A DNA stretch of 13,528 nt from an uncultured Collinsella sp. GTDB taxonomy: Bacteria; Actinomycetota; Coriobacteriia; Coriobacteriales; Coriobacteriaceae. The notes beneath the pieces were generated by a model, which did no database searches, was not told the origin of the DNA, and worked only from the letters and a program-made list of their open reading frames with translations. The DNA is taken from the NCBI GenBank assembly GCA_900555765.1, contig USMA01000009.1, positions 1 through 13,528 on the forward strand, given 5' to 3'. The translations under genes and the position numbers were made by a program. This document shows, piece by piece, positions 3,218 to 11,086 of this stretch; the stretch's first letter is position 1, and every line of letters starts with the position of its first letter.

Positions 3218-4450
3218 GTGGCCGTTACAGCGCTGTACGTGCACGTGCCGTTCTGTGCCAAAAAGTGCCGCTACTGCGACTTCGACTCGCGCAGCTTTGC
3301 TTCGTGTGATTTGGATGCCGCGCTCGATTCCTATTTTGAGCAGTTGTACGCGCGCCTCGATGCTTTTGGTAAGGCTGGGGCCCTCGACCAGATCCGCACC
3401 GTCTATGTTGGCGGCGGTACGCCGTCGCTGGCGGGGGAGCGCCTGGTGGAGCTGGCGCGGCGTATTCGTGCGTGGTGCGCCCCCGTTGAGTTTACCTGCG
3501 AGGCCAATCCTGAGTCGCTGACCTCCGAGCTCGCTACTGCACTTGTCAAGGTTGGTGTCACACGCGTCTCTCTGGGCGTGCAAACGCTCGATAACACCGA
3601 ACTTACTGCCATCGGCCGTATTCACGATGCCGATCGGGCGCTCGCCGCCATCGCGACGGTGAAGGACGCTGGCCTCGATGTGTCGTGCGACCTCATGTGC
3701 GGACTTCCCGTGCAGCCCGCAGCGAGTTGGAAGCGCACGCTCGATGGCGTGCTGGCGGCGGCTCCGCATCATGTGTCGGTCTACCCGCTCACGCTCGAGG
3801 AGGGGACGCCCCTTTATCGCATGGCGTGCCGCGACGAGTCGCTCGAGCCTGATGAGGATTTTCAGGCCGCCTGCATGGACGTGGCACGCGAGCTCCTGGG
3901 TGCCGCCGGCTATCACCCGTATGAGGTGGCGAGCTACGCACTCGACGGCCATGAGTGCGCCCATAACATTGCCTACTGGACCGGACGGGGCTACCTGGGC
4001 CTGGGTCGTTCTGCCGCGGGCATGCTCGACGCCGAGGATTTCGACCGTCTTACAGGTTTGTTCCCCGGCGTGTCTTCTCGAGGCGATTCGTACCGCGTAC
4101 GTCTGGTGCAACGTGACGATGACGCGACGGCGTTCGAGGCCGAATATCTGTCGCAGCGTGAGGCTGCGGCTGAAGACCTGATGCTCGCTTGTCGCATGAC
4201 GCGCGGTATTGCGTCCGACCTGTTGCTTCGTGCAGCTTGCGTCATCCCGGCCGATGAGCTGGCAGCTGCCTGCGATCGCGCGCTCGAATTGGGCCTTGCC
4301 ACTTGGGTACCCGAGACGCTCGGGGTCCATGAGGGACCCTTCACTTCGGCAGATGTCGTCGCGGGCCATGTTCGAGCTCGTCTGGCGCCGACCCACCTGG
4401 GCTGGCTCGATGGAAATGTTCTGTTCGAGCTGTTTTGGGATCTAGCTTAG
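3218..4450 (+). CDS. hemW: HemW-like radical SAM heme chaperone
   Basis: Radical SAM protein related to oxygen-independent coproporphyrinogen oxidase. HemW members bind and deliver heme and do not oxidise coproporphyrinogen. The cluster motif is CAKKCRYCDF (Cys13, Cys17, Cys20). A Cys followed by Asp-Phe rather than another Cys marks HemW over HemN. GGGTPS (65-70) and NPES (97-100) are SAM-binding and barrel motifs, and the C-terminal half keeps the HNIAYW segment near LGLG, typical of the family. At 410 residues it is a little longer than usual. The start is GTG 3218, supported by GGAGG at 3206-3210 inside the end of dusB; the gap to dusB is 2 nt. In many bacteria hemW follows lepA and precedes hrcA; here a dnaJ follows directly. 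Confidence 0.92.
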   Translation: MAVTALYVHVPFCAKKCRYCDFDSRSFASCDLDAALDSYFEQLYARLDAFGKAGALDQIRTVYVGGGTPSLAGERLVELARRIRAWCAPVEFTCEANPESLTSELATALVKVGVTRVSLGVQTLDNTELTAIGRIHDADRALAAIATVKDAGLDVSCDLMCGLPVQPAASWKRTLDGVLAAAPHHVSVYPLTLEEGTPLYRMACRDESLEPDEDFQAACMDVARELLGAAGYHPYEVASYALDGHECAHNIAYWTGRGYLGLGRSAAGMLDAEDFDRLTGLFPGVSSRGDSYRVRLVQRDDDATAFEAEYLSQREAAAEDLMLACRMTRGIASDLLLRAACVIPADELAAACDRALELGLATWVPETLGVHEGPFTSADVVAGHVRARLAPTHLGWLDGNVLFELFWDLA

Positions 4451-4482: not shown

Positions 4483-4499
4483 CTGCTGTGAGCAGGAGG
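4483..4499 (+). promoter_or_regulatory. Small hairpin overlapping the dnaJ ribosome binding site
   Basis: CTGCT (4483-4487) and AGCAG (4491-4495) form a perfect 5-bp stem around the triloop GTG. Its 3' arm covers the first two bases of the strong ribosome binding site AGGAGG (4494-4499), which sits 9 nt before ATG 4509. It could slightly modulate dnaJ translation, but the stem is short and may be chance. Confidence 0.3.
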
Positions 4500-4508
4500 T
4501 TGCCGCGC

Positions 4509-5612
4509 ATGGCGACGATGAACGAAAAAGATTACTACGAGATTCTGGGTGTCTCCAAGGACGCCACCTCGCGTGATATTCAAAAGGCCTTCCAGCAAAA
4601 GGCCCGCAAGCTCCATCCGGACGTCAACAAAGAACCGGATGCCGAGGAAAAGTTTAAAGAGGTTTCCGAGGCCTACGCCGTGCTTTCGGATGAGCAAAAA
4701 CGTGCGCGCTACGATGCCATGCGTTCTGGCAATCCCTTTGTCGGTGCCCCTACGGCTTCGCCCTATGGTGGCGGCTATGCCGGCAACACGGGCTATGGCA
4801 ATCCCTTTGAGGGCGGCTTTCCATTTGGCGGTGCCGGGGGCCAGCAGCGTCGTGGGCAGGCTGCCTACAATCCCGAGAACGGCGCCAACGTGGTCGTCGA
4901 TATCAAGCTCGACGCCAAGGAGGCCAAGGGCGGTGCCCGCAAGACCGTCCGCTATACGCGCTTCGATACCTGTGGTCACTGCGGCGGCTCGGGTTCTGTC
5001 TCCTCCGAGCATGCCCATACCTGCCCAAGCTGTGGCGGCCGCGGCCACATCGATGTTGACCTGTCCTTCCTGTTTGGTGCGGGCACGTTCCAGTCGGTCT
5101 GCCCCGAGTGCGGCGGTTCCGGTAAAGTCGTGGCCGATCCCTGCCCTGATTGCGGCGGCAGCGGTCGTACTCGCGTAACCTCCGAGCAGACGATTGAGTT
5201 TCCTGCCGGCACGCACGATGGCGACGAGGTCCGCATTGGCGGCATGGGTCATGCTGGCACCAACGGTGCCGCGGGCGGCGACCTGGTCGGCCGCGCCCAT
5301 GTTGAGGCCGAGCGCTTGGAAGGCAAAGCTCGTACCGGTTTTTACCTGATGGGCATCGTAGCGCCGTTTTTGGTACTCTCGGCCATCTCGGGTGTGTTCT
5401 CGGCCTTTGCCGTGATGTGCTTTATTCCGTTTACCATGGGCCTGTTCATGGTGCTTTCGGACGGTGTGCTTCATCGCAGCCTGCTGTGGTGGAAGCGCGG
5501 TGCGCTGCAGTTTGCCAACGGTTTTGCCACCGGCTTCATGTTCGCGCTCGTGTCGGTTTGGTTTGCGAGCTGCTCGCAACGGGCCATGCTTTCGCCGTAC
5601 CAAATGCAATAA
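4509..5612 (+). CDS. dnaJ: DnaJ-type co-chaperone with C-terminal membrane segments
   Basis: Hsp40 co-chaperone that would stimulate DnaK. The 367-residue protein has a J domain (about 6-71) with the catalytic HPD at 36-38, then a Gly/Phe-rich linker (about 74-120). A complete zinc finger follows with four CxxCxGxG repeats beginning at Cys155, Cys172, Cys198 and Cys212, and C-terminal domain I ends near [10 protein letters not shown] (257-265). Domain II and the dimerisation tail are absent. Instead residues about 277-355 form two or three strongly hydrophobic segments (about 278-297, 299-318 and 336-355), so the protein is probably anchored in the membrane. No DnaJ-like remnant appears in the other + strand frames over this tail, which argues against a simple frameshift. 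ATG 4509 is chosen for its AGGAGG; an in-frame GTG at 4488 lacks one. A second dnaJ follows. Confidence 0.9.
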
Positions 5613-5693: not shown

Positions 5694-6853
5694 GTGTCGG
5701 AAAATAGGGATTACTACGAGGTGCTTGGCGTCGACAGGGATGCCGACGCGCGGACGATTAAGCGCGCGTTTCTAAAGAAGGCCCGTACCGTACACCCGGA
5801 CGTTTCGGACGACCCCGAGGCCGAGGCCAAGTTCAAGGAGCTCAACGAGGCCTATTCCGTTCTTTCCGATGAGCAGAAGCGTGCTAACTACGACCGTTAC
5901 GGCACTGCCGACGGCCCTGGTGGTTCGGGCTACGTCGATATCAACGATATCTTTGGTGGCATGGGCATGGACGACTTGTTCTCGTCGTTCTTTGGCGGCG
6001 GTGCCGGCGGTGGCGCCCGCAGCCGTCGTGAGCGTCGTCGCGGACGAGACATGGCCATCTCGCTTTCGGTGACGCTCGAGGAGGCGGCGCTCGGCTGCAA
6101 AAAGACGATCAGCTATGACCGCCTTGCTCCTTGCGAGGACTGCAATGGCACCGGTAGGGCAGAGGGCGCACAGGAAAAGCAGTGCGGCCGCTGCCACGGT
6201 ACGGGCTACGTCACGACGGTTCAGCGTTCGTTCCTGGGCCAGGTTCAGTCTTCCTCGCCTTGTCCCGACTGCCATGGCGAGGGCACGGTTATCGACCATC
6301 CCTGCGAGACCTGCGACGGTCAAGGCCGCACGCCTTCGCACGAAAAGATCGACATCGATATTCCCGCCGGCGTTTCGACCGGTCGCCAGCTGCGCGTGAG
6401 CGGCTTTGGCGAGGCCGGCCTTCGCGGCGAGCCTTCGGGCGACCTGATTGTCAACGTGCGCGTTGCCGACCATGAGCGCTTTAAGCGCAACGGGGACGAC
6501 CTGTACATGGTGAGCGATATCTCGATTGCGCAGGCTGCGCTCGGCTGCGAAATCGAGGTCGCGGGCATGGCCCTGGCCTTATGCCCGACGAGGCCGTTAA
6601 GGTGACGGTTCCCGCCGGCGCCCAGTACGGCGACACCGTGAGCGTCAATAATTACGGCATGCCGCGCATTGGCGGTGGCGGTTCGCGTGGCCGCCTGATC
6701 GTGCAACTGCGCGTGGTCGTTCCCACCAATCTTTCCAATAAGCAGCGCGAGCTGCTCCGTGCTTTTGCCGATGAGATGGGCGATGACGTCGCTTCCGGTA
6801 AGAAGTCGGTGACCGACCGTATCAAGAGTGCCCTCGACGATATCCTCGATTAA
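5694..6853 (+). pseudogene. dnaJ: Second DnaJ (canonical type), frameshifted near 6566-6581
   Basis: Class A Hsp40. From GTG 5694 it has a J domain with HPD (34-36) and a Gly/Phe region with DIFGGMGMDDLFSSFF. A zinc finger follows with repeats starting at Cys147, Cys164, Cys190 and Cys204, then C-terminal domain I and the start of domain II (IAQAALGCEIEV). After Gly291 the frame runs out of family sequence and stops at TGA 6603-6605 (303 residues). The rest of domain II, MPDEAVKVTVPAGAQYGD onward, is intact in the -1 frame from about 6578 to TAA 6851-6853. One missing base, or an 11-base insertion CATGGCCCTGG at 6566-6576, would explain this; removing those 11 bases restores VAGLMPDEAVKV. The GTG start is supported by GAAGGA at 5681-5686. 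No classic slippery heptamer is present. Restored, the protein would have about 380 residues, the normal DnaJ size. Confidence 0.88.
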
Positions 6854-6862
6854 GGAGCCCGC

Positions 6863-8155
6863 GTGCTCGCACCCCATATTTCCGTCGTCAACCTCGGCTG
6901 CCGTGTCAACCGGGTTGAGTCTGACCGTATCACTGCCGATCTTATGCGCTTGGGCTTTGCTATTGTGGAGCCCCAGGATGCCGATCTGATCGTCATTAAC
7001 ACTTGTGCCGTTACGGGCGAGGCCGAGGCCAAGACCCGTAAGGCCGTCCGTCATGCGCTGGCCCATCCAAACGAGCCCTATGTGGTCGTGACGGGATGCG
7101 TGGTCAATTTGCATCCCGAGGAGCTGTCGGAGCTTTCGGATCGCGTGATTGCCGAGCCGTCCAAGATAGATGTCGCCGAACGTGTTTGCGAGGTGCTGGG
7201 TGTTGAGTCCGATAGCGTTCCCGCCTGCAGCGATGGCGAGGTGGTCGATGCGCTCGGTCGCTCTCGCCTGGGCGTGAAGATTCAGGATGGCTGCAACCAT
7301 CGCTGCACCTATTGCATTGTGTGGAAGGCGCGCGGCCCCGAGCGCTCCGTGCCCGTCGAGTCCGTGCTCGAGCAAGTTCGCGAGGCCCAGGAGGCCGGCG
7401 TGCCCGAGGTGGTGCTGACCGGTGTGAACCTGGGTGCCTACGATGGCAAGAGCGCGACCGACGAGCACGTCGAAATCGATGAGCTGCTCGAGGCCATCAT
7501 GGAGCGCACGTCTATTCCGCATGTGCGCATTTCCTCGGTCGAGCCCATGGATATCTCCGAGCGTCTGCTTAAGGTTATGGCGCGCTATCCGCAGCGTATC
7601 GCCCCGTTTTTGCACCTGCCCGTGCAGTCCGGCTGCACAGCGACTCAGCATCGCATGGGCCGTCCCTATAGCGCCGCGGCCATAGAGGAAACGGTGCGTA
7701 TGATTCGCGCCAACTTGCCCCAGGCTTCTCTTTCGTGCGATGTCATCGTCGGTTTTCCTGGTGAGACGGACGAGGAGTTCGAGGAGTCGCTGGCGCTGTG
7801 CCGTCGTGTGGGTTTCTCGCGTATGCTCGTGTTCCGCTATAGCAAGCGTCCCGGTACCCTTGCTGCCGATATGCCCGCACAGGTGCCGCCCGAGGTTATG
7901 ACCGAGCGCAGCCGTCGTATGCGCGCCGCGGCGCAGGAACTCGCCATTGCTGACGCTCGTCGTCGCGTGGGCACCGTCGAGCGTGCCGTCCTCGAGTACG
8001 GCGATAACCTGACGCTCGGCTCGTTCCATCATGCCCGTCTTGACGATACCTGTGGACTCACAGCCCCGTGCCTGCTCGATGTTGCTATCATCGGAGTCGA
8101 TGATTCCGGCTTGGTCCATGCGCGCAGGGAGGTTCATGGAAGCCTCGAAGATTAG
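6863..8155 (+). CDS. mtaB: tRNA t6A37 methylthiotransferase MtaB
   Basis: Radical SAM methylthiotransferase that converts N6-threonylcarbamoyladenosine at position 37 of tRNAs reading ANN codons to its 2-methylthio form. The N-terminal domain carries the three cysteines for the auxiliary Fe-S cluster (Cys13 in LGCRVN, Cys48 in NTCAVT, Cys79 in TGCV). The radical SAM motif is DGCNHRCTYC (Cys144, Cys148, Cys151). TGVNLGAY, SSVEP, HLPVQSG and VGFPGETDEEF are family signatures, and a short TRAM-like tail ends the protein (about 360-430). The motif set favours MtaB over MiaB and RimO. It starts at GTG 6863 with AAGGAG at 6852-6857, overlapping the stop of the second dnaJ. Its end overlaps phoH by 20 nt. 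In Firmicutes mtaB also lies downstream of dnaJ. Confidence 0.93.
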   Translation: MLAPHISVVNLGCRVNRVESDRITADLMRLGFAIVEPQDADLIVINTCAVTGEAEAKTRKAVRHALAHPNEPYVVVTGCVVNLHPEELSELSDRVIAEPSKIDVAERVCEVLGVESDSVPACSDGEVVDALGRSRLGVKIQDGCNHRCTYCIVWKARGPERSVPVESVLEQVREAQEAGVPEVVLTGVNLGAYDGKSATDEHVEIDELLEAIMERTSIPHVRISSVEPMDISERLLKVMARYPQRIAPFLHLPVQSGCTATQHRMGRPYSAAAIEETVRMIRANLPQASLSCDVIVGFPGETDEEFEESLALCRRVGFSRMLVFRYSKRPGTLAADMPAQVPPEVMTERSRRMRAAAQELAIADARRRVGTVERAVLEYGDNLTLGSFHHARLDDTCGLTAPCLLDVAIIGVDDSGLVHARREVHGSLED

Positions 8156-10027: not shown

Positions 10028-11086
10028 ATGTCCGACAATATGCAGTCTGCCGATGAAGTTTTGGATGACGAGTCCCTAGACGCGGTGGATACCGAGGATG
10101 TCGAGGAGTTCGACCCGTTTGAGGGTATGAGCGACGAGGAACTCGACGCCCTGTGCGACGAGGACGACAACCTCGCGGGCTTTGGTGACGTTGAGCCCGG
10201 TTTCCGCAGCGGCTTTGTGGCCCTGGTCGGTCGTCCCAACGCTGGCAAGTCTACGCTGCTTAATGCCTGCTATGGCAAAAAGGTCGCCATCACCTCGCCG
10301 GTGGCCCAGACGACCCGCCGCCGCATGCGCGCCGTCGTCAACCGCCCCGGCTACCAGCTGGTCTTTGTCGATACCCCCGGTATTCATAAGCCCAAGGACG
10401 GCTTGGGATCCGAGCTCAACAAGAGCGCGTTGTTCGAGCTGAACGATGTTGATGTTGTCGCGTTTTTGATTGATGCCACCAAGCCGATCGGCAGGGGAGA
10501 CTCCTGGGTTGCCGAGCGCGTCAAGAACTCCCGTTCCAAGAAGGTCCTGGTGCTCACTAAGGCCGATGAGGCCGACCCCGCACAGGTCATGGAGCAGCTT
10601 AAGGCCGCCCACGAGCTCATGGAATATGACGACGAGATCGTGACGTCGTCGGTCAAGAACTTCAACGTCGATGCCTTTATCGAGACCGTTGCGCACTTTT
10701 TGCCCGAAGGCCCGCGTTGGTTCCCCGAGGACATGGGTACCGATGCTTCCGATGAGACGCTCGTTGCCGAGTTTGTGCGCGAGAAGTTTTTGCGCCGCAC
10801 CCGTGATGAGATTCCGCTCTCCGTTGGCGTGATCTGCGATACGCTCGAGCAGAGCAAGAAGGTGCTGCGCGTGCACGCCACCATTTACGTCGAGCGCGAG
10901 GGCCAAAAGGGCATCATCATCGGCAAGGGCGGCGAGATGATCAAGCATATCGGTATCGACGCCCGTCGCGATCTTGAGCGCATCTTTGGCACGCAGGTCT
11001 TTTTGGAGCTGGACGTGAAGGTCAAGGCCGGCTGGCGTGACGACGAGGCCCAGATTCGCCGCTTTGGCTACAACGCCGAGGACTAA
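10028..11086 (+). CDS. era: GTPase Era with acidic N-terminal extension
   Basis: Essential GTPase that binds the 3' end of 16S rRNA and assists 30S maturation. The 352-residue protein has G1 GRPNAGKS (68-75), the Era-type segment SPVAQTTRRR (90-99), G3 DTPG (115-118), G4 TKAD (177-180, instead of the common NKxD) and a C-terminal KH domain with GKGG (299-302), ending in VKVKAGWRDDE. It is about 50 residues longer than typical Era because of an N-terminal extension. Of the first 57 residues, 24 are Asp or Glu, and the first basic residue is Arg60. ATG 10028 is supported by AAAGGG at 10016-10021. A later start at Met34 (10127) would drop part of the extension but lacks that site. It lies between dgkA and recO, a widely conserved order. 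Confidence 0.95.
   Translation: MSDNMQSADEVLDDESLDAVDTEDVEEFDPFEGMSDEELDALCDEDDNLAGFGDVEPGFRSGFVALVGRPNAGKSTLLNACYGKKVAITSPVAQTTRRRMRAVVNRPGYQLVFVDTPGIHKPKDGLGSELNKSALFELNDVDVVAFLIDATKPIGRGDSWVAERVKNSRSKKVLVLTKADEADPAQVMEQLKAAHELMEYDDEIVTSSVKNFNVDAFIETVAHFLPEGPRWFPEDMGTDASDETLVAEFVREKFLRRTRDEIPLSVGVICDTLEQSKKVLRVHATIYVEREGQKGIIIGKGGEMIKHIGIDARRDLERIFGTQVFLELDVKVKAGWRDDEAQIRRFGYNAED

Follow-up and report, generated by a model that had tools for sequence, protein, structure and literature searches.

The second DnaJ of Collinsella and its relatives, in which the last part of the protein is swapped for a predicted anchor, probably brings DnaK to the membrane. The gene for this membrane-tailed DnaJ (MJ, 367 aa) occupies positions 4509-5612 on the forward strand of the 13,528-nucleotide stretch of DNA analyzed here (the window), which carries the HemW-like, canonical dnaJ and MtaB-like neighbor genes described below on the same strand. 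The architecture is confirmed: MJ is a class-A-derived J protein whose domain II and dimerization domain have been exchanged for a hydrophobic tail.

Domain architecture of the tailed DnaJ

The open reading frame runs unbroken from a GTG at 4488 to the stop codon ending at 5612, with the tail in frame with the DnaJ body. The RefSeq-annotated start of the Collinsella aerofaciens homolog (locus L001) corresponds to the ATG at 4509, which is preceded by a directly readable ribosome-binding site (AGGAGG, 4494-4499) and yields the protein of 367 aa. The C. aerofaciens protein, annotated as ‘DnaJ domain-containing protein’, is 96.5% identical across the full length of MJ, and no indel separates the two genes. 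Residues are numbered from the MNEKD start (codon 4518 = residue 1), and adding 3 gives the position in the 367-aa protein. A promoter and terminator scan around the gene gave results no better than those from shuffled sequences.

A J domain with the HPD motif (4530-4715; PF00226, E 1.1e-25) is followed by a Gly/Phe-rich linker (4725-4871), predicted to be disordered with pLDDT below 50 at residues 72-118, and by C-terminal domain I (4893-5306), a beta sandwich matching DnaJ structures that encloses a zinc finger of four CXXCXGXG repeats (4971-5165; PF00684, E 1.8e-13). Among 143 full-length relatives, HPD is present in all and each of the eight zinc-finger cysteines in 142 or 143. Beyond domain I the similarity to DnaJ ends: the Pfam DnaJ_C match (PF01556) is restricted to profile positions 2-73 of 152, and the match to the NCBIfam DnaJ_bact equivalog TIGR02349 stops at position 260 of 354, scoring 243.7 bits, under the curated cut-off of 377.2. 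The initial annotation of this DNA had described an intact J domain, Gly/Phe linker, four-repeat zinc finger and domain I, with hydrophobic segments in place of domain II and the dimerization tail. The former is borne out by Pfam, TIGR02349 and the alignment, the latter by the profile ends together with the hydropathy and AlphaFold results below.

As a class A protein, MJ possesses the J domain with HPD, the G/F-rich linker and the four-repeat zinc finger in domain I; it lacks the second beta-sandwich domain (CTD II) and the C-terminal dimerization domain. Nor is it of class C (Djl type), which has the J domain alone in common with DnaJ, as the zinc finger and domain I are both present. In other DnaJs domain II bears a client-binding site; since this domain is absent, client binding by MJ may be weak.

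The tail as a predicted membrane anchor

In the window protein, hydrophobicity is uninterrupted from residue 274 to residue 314 (Kyte-Doolittle peak 2.35 over 19 residues), a length that could hold two helices; a second, weaker stretch lies at about residues 329-354 (peak 1.51), and the best 19-residue window beginning within residues 1-250 reaches 0.95. Hydropathy alone cannot split helices 1 and 2, and the split therefore comes from AlphaFold, which modeled three helices both in the full protein (residues 270-291, 296-314 and 322-363; mean pLDDT 76.5, with a low pTM of 0.46) and in the tail alone (pLDDT 89.7, pTM 0.76). Predicted membrane helices 1 (residues 270-291, positions 5325-5390) and 2 (residues 296-314, positions 5403-5459) are thus followed by a positively charged loop with a WW[KR] motif (residues 315-330, positions 5460-5507), predicted to be cytoplasmic, and by predicted membrane helix 3 (core residues 331-352, positions 5508-5573), which ends at a conserved Ser-Cys. 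Two points speak against a three-helix anchor, namely that helices 1 and 2 share an unbroken hydrophobic run of some 41 residues that has a short turn in it, and that the hydrophobicity of helix 3 is no more than moderate in the window protein (1.51).

The membrane-type hydropathy threshold, set at 1.6 for a 19-residue window, was exceeded by the tail in 143/143 full-length relatives (minimum 1.89, median 2.53) and by the body in none (median 0.96, maximum 1.55). The C-terminal halves of 56 canonical DnaJs had a median of 1.06 and a maximum of 1.66, so that at least one of them passes the threshold, which is not perfectly clean. Separate peaks, counted over 1.25, numbered three in 92 relatives, two in 45 and four in 6, a difference that makes other topologies possible. 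Mean net charge was +0.09 ahead of helix 1 and +0.01, +2.27 and +0.97 in the segments that follow helices 1, 2 and 3, a bias that fits an N-in orientation, mainly via one loop.

A tail of this composition could also be a soluble oligomerization or auto-inhibitory module, packing on itself or on the client site and not inserted into a membrane. Helix 3 is long and charged at its start (WWKRG), and canonical DnaJ dimerizes through its own C-terminus. Against such a module stand the membrane-range hydropathy of every relative and the scarcity of charges inside the helices (mean K+R+D+E of 0.39, 0.59 and 0.23 in helices 1, 2 and 3 of the 143 relatives), which leave it improbable. From hydropathy, charge bias and the membrane-type helices of the AlphaFold model, which support the membrane segments proposed in the initial annotation, we infer a membrane location with the N-terminus inside.

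Conserved residues of the tail include W324 (143/143), W325 (134/143), Ser351 (129/143) and Cys352 (134/143). The last two, at the outer end of helix 3 and followed by 6-20 residues, resemble a lipobox, and the C-terminus might be lipidated there or released as a short lipopeptide. A strict lipobox is found in just 4/143 relatives, the 125/143 matches being to a looser motif of our own making, and to our knowledge internal lipoboxes are not usual substrates; we consider lipidation or release very improbable.

Conservation and distribution of the tail

A protein search returned 5810 matches, the best 120 of which are all at least 58% identical, and in the 29 of these 120 that were aligned with the window protein the tails correspond, save for a different end in one (P0102). 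Scanning genome contigs gave 163 loci with a relative, the best 80 belonging to Coriobacteriaceae (55), Atopobiaceae (23) and uncultured actinobacteria (2). A profile of the tail matched 134 of 296 sampled Coriobacteriia genomes, or 131 after dropping three in which the match was over 0.001 and the locus was without a J-domain frame. Weak matches (E 0.0017-0.0042) in G042, G075 and G228, and the second one in G188, were rejected as chance, their loci (L157-L160) being without a J-domain frame. In 396 genomes of the phylum the profile found 29 matches; 23 were strong (E 7e-18 or better) and all came from genomes already in the class sample, and the remaining six were 0.0013 or weaker, none of them convincing outside the Coriobacteriia sample.

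The tail is consistently fused to DnaJ, with a J domain in 210 of 213 tail-bearing frames. Two of the exceptions (L029 and L116) are the same contig edge and the third (L181, in G236) has a stop inside the match. As loci overlap, the 210 frames represent 145 distinct sequences when trimmed to the J domain, 143 of them full-length. The initial annotation had named a normal domain II in close relatives as one of two observations that would undo its reading; the relatives carry the same tail instead. The other, a lack of predicted membrane helices, is likewise at odds with the hydropathy, charge bias and AlphaFold results.

For ten comparisons picked from 19 close C. aerofaciens-group loci, dN of the tail (0.009-0.042) was far below dS (0.097-0.518) in all ten, and judged by these substitution rates the tail is under purifying selection. 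It is less constrained, i.e. faster evolving, than the zinc finger and domain I (dN 0.003-0.028) in 10/10 comparisons. These observations bear on whether the tail is the product of a local frameshift, an assembly error or a decaying duplicate, a reading to which the interruption of both canonical dnaJ and lepA in the same window lends some weight. The tail is nevertheless in frame, conserved in 143 full-length relatives and apparently selected, and the gene aligns with that of L001 without a gap, so that close and distant relatives already refute the idea, to which we give next to no credence. On the evidence of the aligned sequences, the tail is no local error of the window.

The two disrupted genes were seen as follows. 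Canonical dnaJ (5694-6853), next to MJ, is broken in frame by an 11-bp insertion at 6568-6578 that none of 21 related loci shares (two of them come from the same genome); if the insertion is real, the membrane-tailed protein would be the sole intact zinc-finger DnaJ at this locus in the strain. In lepA, a stop codon at 1586-1588 interrupts the gene, and none of the 20 related loci compared shares it. Two housekeeping-gene disruptions within 13.5 kb hint at either sequence error or real decay. Comparison with C. aerofaciens L001 also revealed a 9-bp in-frame difference in Era, near 10092, in the acidic N-terminal part. The sequence containing L001 (NZ_OY725717.1; 899,693 bp) was deposited as ‘plasmid 6’ of C. 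aerofaciens; it has lepA, holA, era, rpsO and other housekeeping genes, and looks like a piece of the chromosome.

Origin of the tail and of the tailed DnaJ

Borrowing of the tail from a known membrane family was considered and rejected, as no convincing match was found in Pfam, the PDB or by Foldseek. In a Pfam scan of 21 diverse tails the window tail matched no family and the others gave scattered weak matches (best 0.0025), most commonly to DUF6132 (3/21); a PDB sequence search with the tail had a best E of 0.037; and Foldseek on the tail model returned 16 matches at E up to 10, none at 0.001. A tail-only profile search identified 30 proteins of 80-193 aa, 18 of which retain some of the zinc finger or of domain I, while the other 12 begin within the tail, immediately ahead of it, or behind residues from a different frame or source; three of the 12 (P0127, P0138, P0142) have foreign-looking starts and lie on contigs of at most 1557 bases. 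A free-standing or otherwise fused tail was therefore rejected, the short proteins being read as pieces, frame-broken copies or chimeras, a reading not proven for each.

The 37 tailed DnaJs among 100 DnaJ rows all grouped in one clade of a first tree (SH-aLRT 99). A second tree, to which 44 DnaJs of the phylum sample were added (L276 from G007 and 43 from genomes that the class sample does not include), again recovered the 20 tailed DnaJs used as one clade (100), placed within one of two large clades (98), that of the hrcA-linked Coriobacteriia DnaJ; in each of 16 other genomes giving two DnaJs, the pair was split between the large clades. Without constraint, the tree that includes other actinobacteria assigns MJ no firm sister, and the MJ stem is long (1.17). 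When MJ was constrained to group with the Coriobacteriia DnaJ, the likelihood improved by 38.9 (p-AU 0.872). In these trees a duplication within Coriobacteriia appears compatible, not proven, and the simplest account would be that the gene was duplicated in tandem around hrcA and that domain II was lost afterwards. The duplication reading that had been suggested at the outset holds up; the relation to hrcA and the disruption of dnaJ had been overlooked. Two DnaJ-like neighbors of tailed DnaJs (L067, L175) have very long branches (2.09 and 1.22) and are perhaps degenerate or misassembled canonical copies.

Gene neighborhood and the hrcA pattern

MJ lies between a HemW-like radical SAM gene (3218-4450; TIGR00539 above cut-off) and canonical dnaJ, beyond which an MtaB-like methylthiotransferase gene (6863-8155) follows; the latter, at 337.3, falls short of the MtaB cut-off (357.05) and exceeds that of the MiaB/RimO family. 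Both outer genes are conserved neighbors. Among the genes tested, a set without hrcA, 167 of 207 tail genes (from overlapping loci) had hemW before and dnaJ after, and a further 36 had dnaJ after, 35 of them without a tested gene before. The four exceptions were two contig ends (L055, L161) and two loci with mtaB next (L067, L070).

At 20 tail-free loci, hrcA was directly upstream of dnaJ in 19 (the exception being G082), mtaB was next in 19, and a same-strand upstream hemW match was present in 15, at a distance of about 4.5 kb in L224. Translation of five gaps in tail-free loci gave an HrcA-like frame in four; in the fifth (L222) the longest frame is a different one, though the HrcA profile match falls there. 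Our guess is that the tail-free genomes are mainly Eggerthellaceae. Across the 296 genomes, tailed DnaJ was present in 131 and HrcA in 153 (E 0.001 or better; 140 pass the NCBIfam HrcA cut-off), after weak HrcA matches in G083 and G174 (E 5.1e-4 and 6.7e-4) had been dropped. The two seldom co-occur: five genomes have both, 126 tailed DnaJ only, 148 HrcA only and 17 neither. In all five with both (G095, G101, G193, G243, G287; loci L121, L165, L172, L185, L194) hrcA sits between the tail gene and dnaJ.

This pattern bears on the possibility that MJ is a regulatory J protein, in which membrane stress would draw DnaK off HspR and let heat-shock genes respond, with HrcA becoming redundant and being repeatedly lost from the locus in which its gene would earlier have stood between the two dnaJ genes. 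DnaK is the co-repressor of HspR in Streptomyces, and the dnaK cluster of C. stercoris holds a gene for a MerR-type regulator, the kind to which HspR belongs. The rarity of co-occurrence, the position of hrcA in the five genomes retaining it, and a loss-only count of five hrcA losses inside the MJ clade (one being a single long-branched locus), made on a five-gene FastTree covering 119 loci, four of the five co-occurring genomes being represented, all accord with such a role. Yet independent events are few: a small number of clades dominates the pattern, with loss-only groups of 26 and 66 loci, and with three unordered states the minimum is three changes. Moreover, the HrcA matches in the five co-occurring genomes score 179.6-195.2, just under the NCBIfam cut-off of 197.2, with Pfam confirming one (G243), and a scan of the window for CIRCE and HAIR consensus patterns gave no site with up to 3 mismatches. 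The anti-correlation between HrcA and tailed DnaJ is real but dominated by few clades and is no proof of a functional link, and we consider a regulatory role unlikely. Among the HrcA/HspR literature matches listed, none names Collinsella or Coriobacteria, and the anti-correlation offers an entry point to a rewiring of heat-shock control in these bacteria.

Proposed role and relation to known systems

C. stercoris, Thermophilibacter provencensis and C. aerofaciens have only three J-domain proteins that were found, one of them the tailed DnaJ. The third J protein of C. stercoris is of class B, without zinc finger, and is encoded in a cluster of dnaK, grpE, the J-protein gene and the MerR-type regulator gene (Pfam: HSP70, GrpE); judged from frames, the order of the dnaK cluster is the same in C. 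aerofaciens. In the two Collinsella genomes the tailed DnaJ is the sole J protein seen with a predicted membrane anchor.

We regard it as likely that MJ is a membrane-tethered, class-A-derived J protein recruiting DnaK to inner-membrane clients. An intact J domain together with a predicted anchor leads us to infer that DnaK is brought to the membrane, where the clients would lie. The three-helix tail, oriented N-in and C-out, would hold the J domain, the zinc finger and domain I at the cytoplasmic side of the inner membrane. Exposed hydrophobic segments of membrane-near clients might then be bound by domain I and the zinc finger, and the HPD motif would trigger the DnaK ATPase at the membrane, so that DnaK activity would be concentrated there, for example on nascent or damaged membrane proteins.

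With canonical class A DnaJ (TIGR02349; E. coli DnaJ, Thermus DnaJ, Ydj1), MJ shares the J domain, the G/F linker, the four-repeat zinc finger and domain I; it differs in being without domain II and the dimerization domain and in having three predicted membrane helices. Plant ORANGE proteins, like the predicted MJ, combine a DnaJ-type zinc finger with membrane helices, but have no J domain, carry the helices ahead of the finger and are located in plastids. They have been called DnaJE1 molecular chaperones.

No recognizable description of a membrane-tailed zinc-finger DnaJ was met in the titles and abstract openings of the literature matches listed; the prokaryotic J-protein survey of Barriot and others (2020), cited in PMC8215388, may list the architecture. 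In the available portions of a 2026 review (PMC13254874), no anchored class A protein from bacteria is named. Loss of the zinc finger is the subject of a 2026 study on evolution from class A to class B (PMC12799103), in whose main text the words ‘transmembrane’ and ‘membrane’ have 0 occurrences. According to passages of PMC8215388, class C proteins and DnaJ have only the J domain in common, the tail-anchored J proteins of E. coli belong to class C, and transmembrane regions are mentioned under that class.

The actinobacterial DnaJ2 and DnaJ2B resemble MJ as duplicate DnaJs of changed architecture, MJ itself falling in one of the two Actinomycetota DnaJ clades; DnaJ2B is without the zinc finger, as parts of PMC12799103 describe, whereas MJ has kept the finger and lost domain II. 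In the E. coli class C proteins DjlC and DjlB (partner HscC), a C-terminal anchor holds the J domain at the plasma membrane (passages of PMC8215388), as is predicted for MJ; unlike MJ, they are without zinc finger and domain I. MJ of Coriobacteriaceae and Atopobiaceae would represent a different way of arriving at a membrane Hsp70 system, apart from that of DjlB and DjlC, having traded the second client domain and the dimer interface for a predicted polytopic anchor, and it makes the role of domain I and the zinc finger on their own testable.
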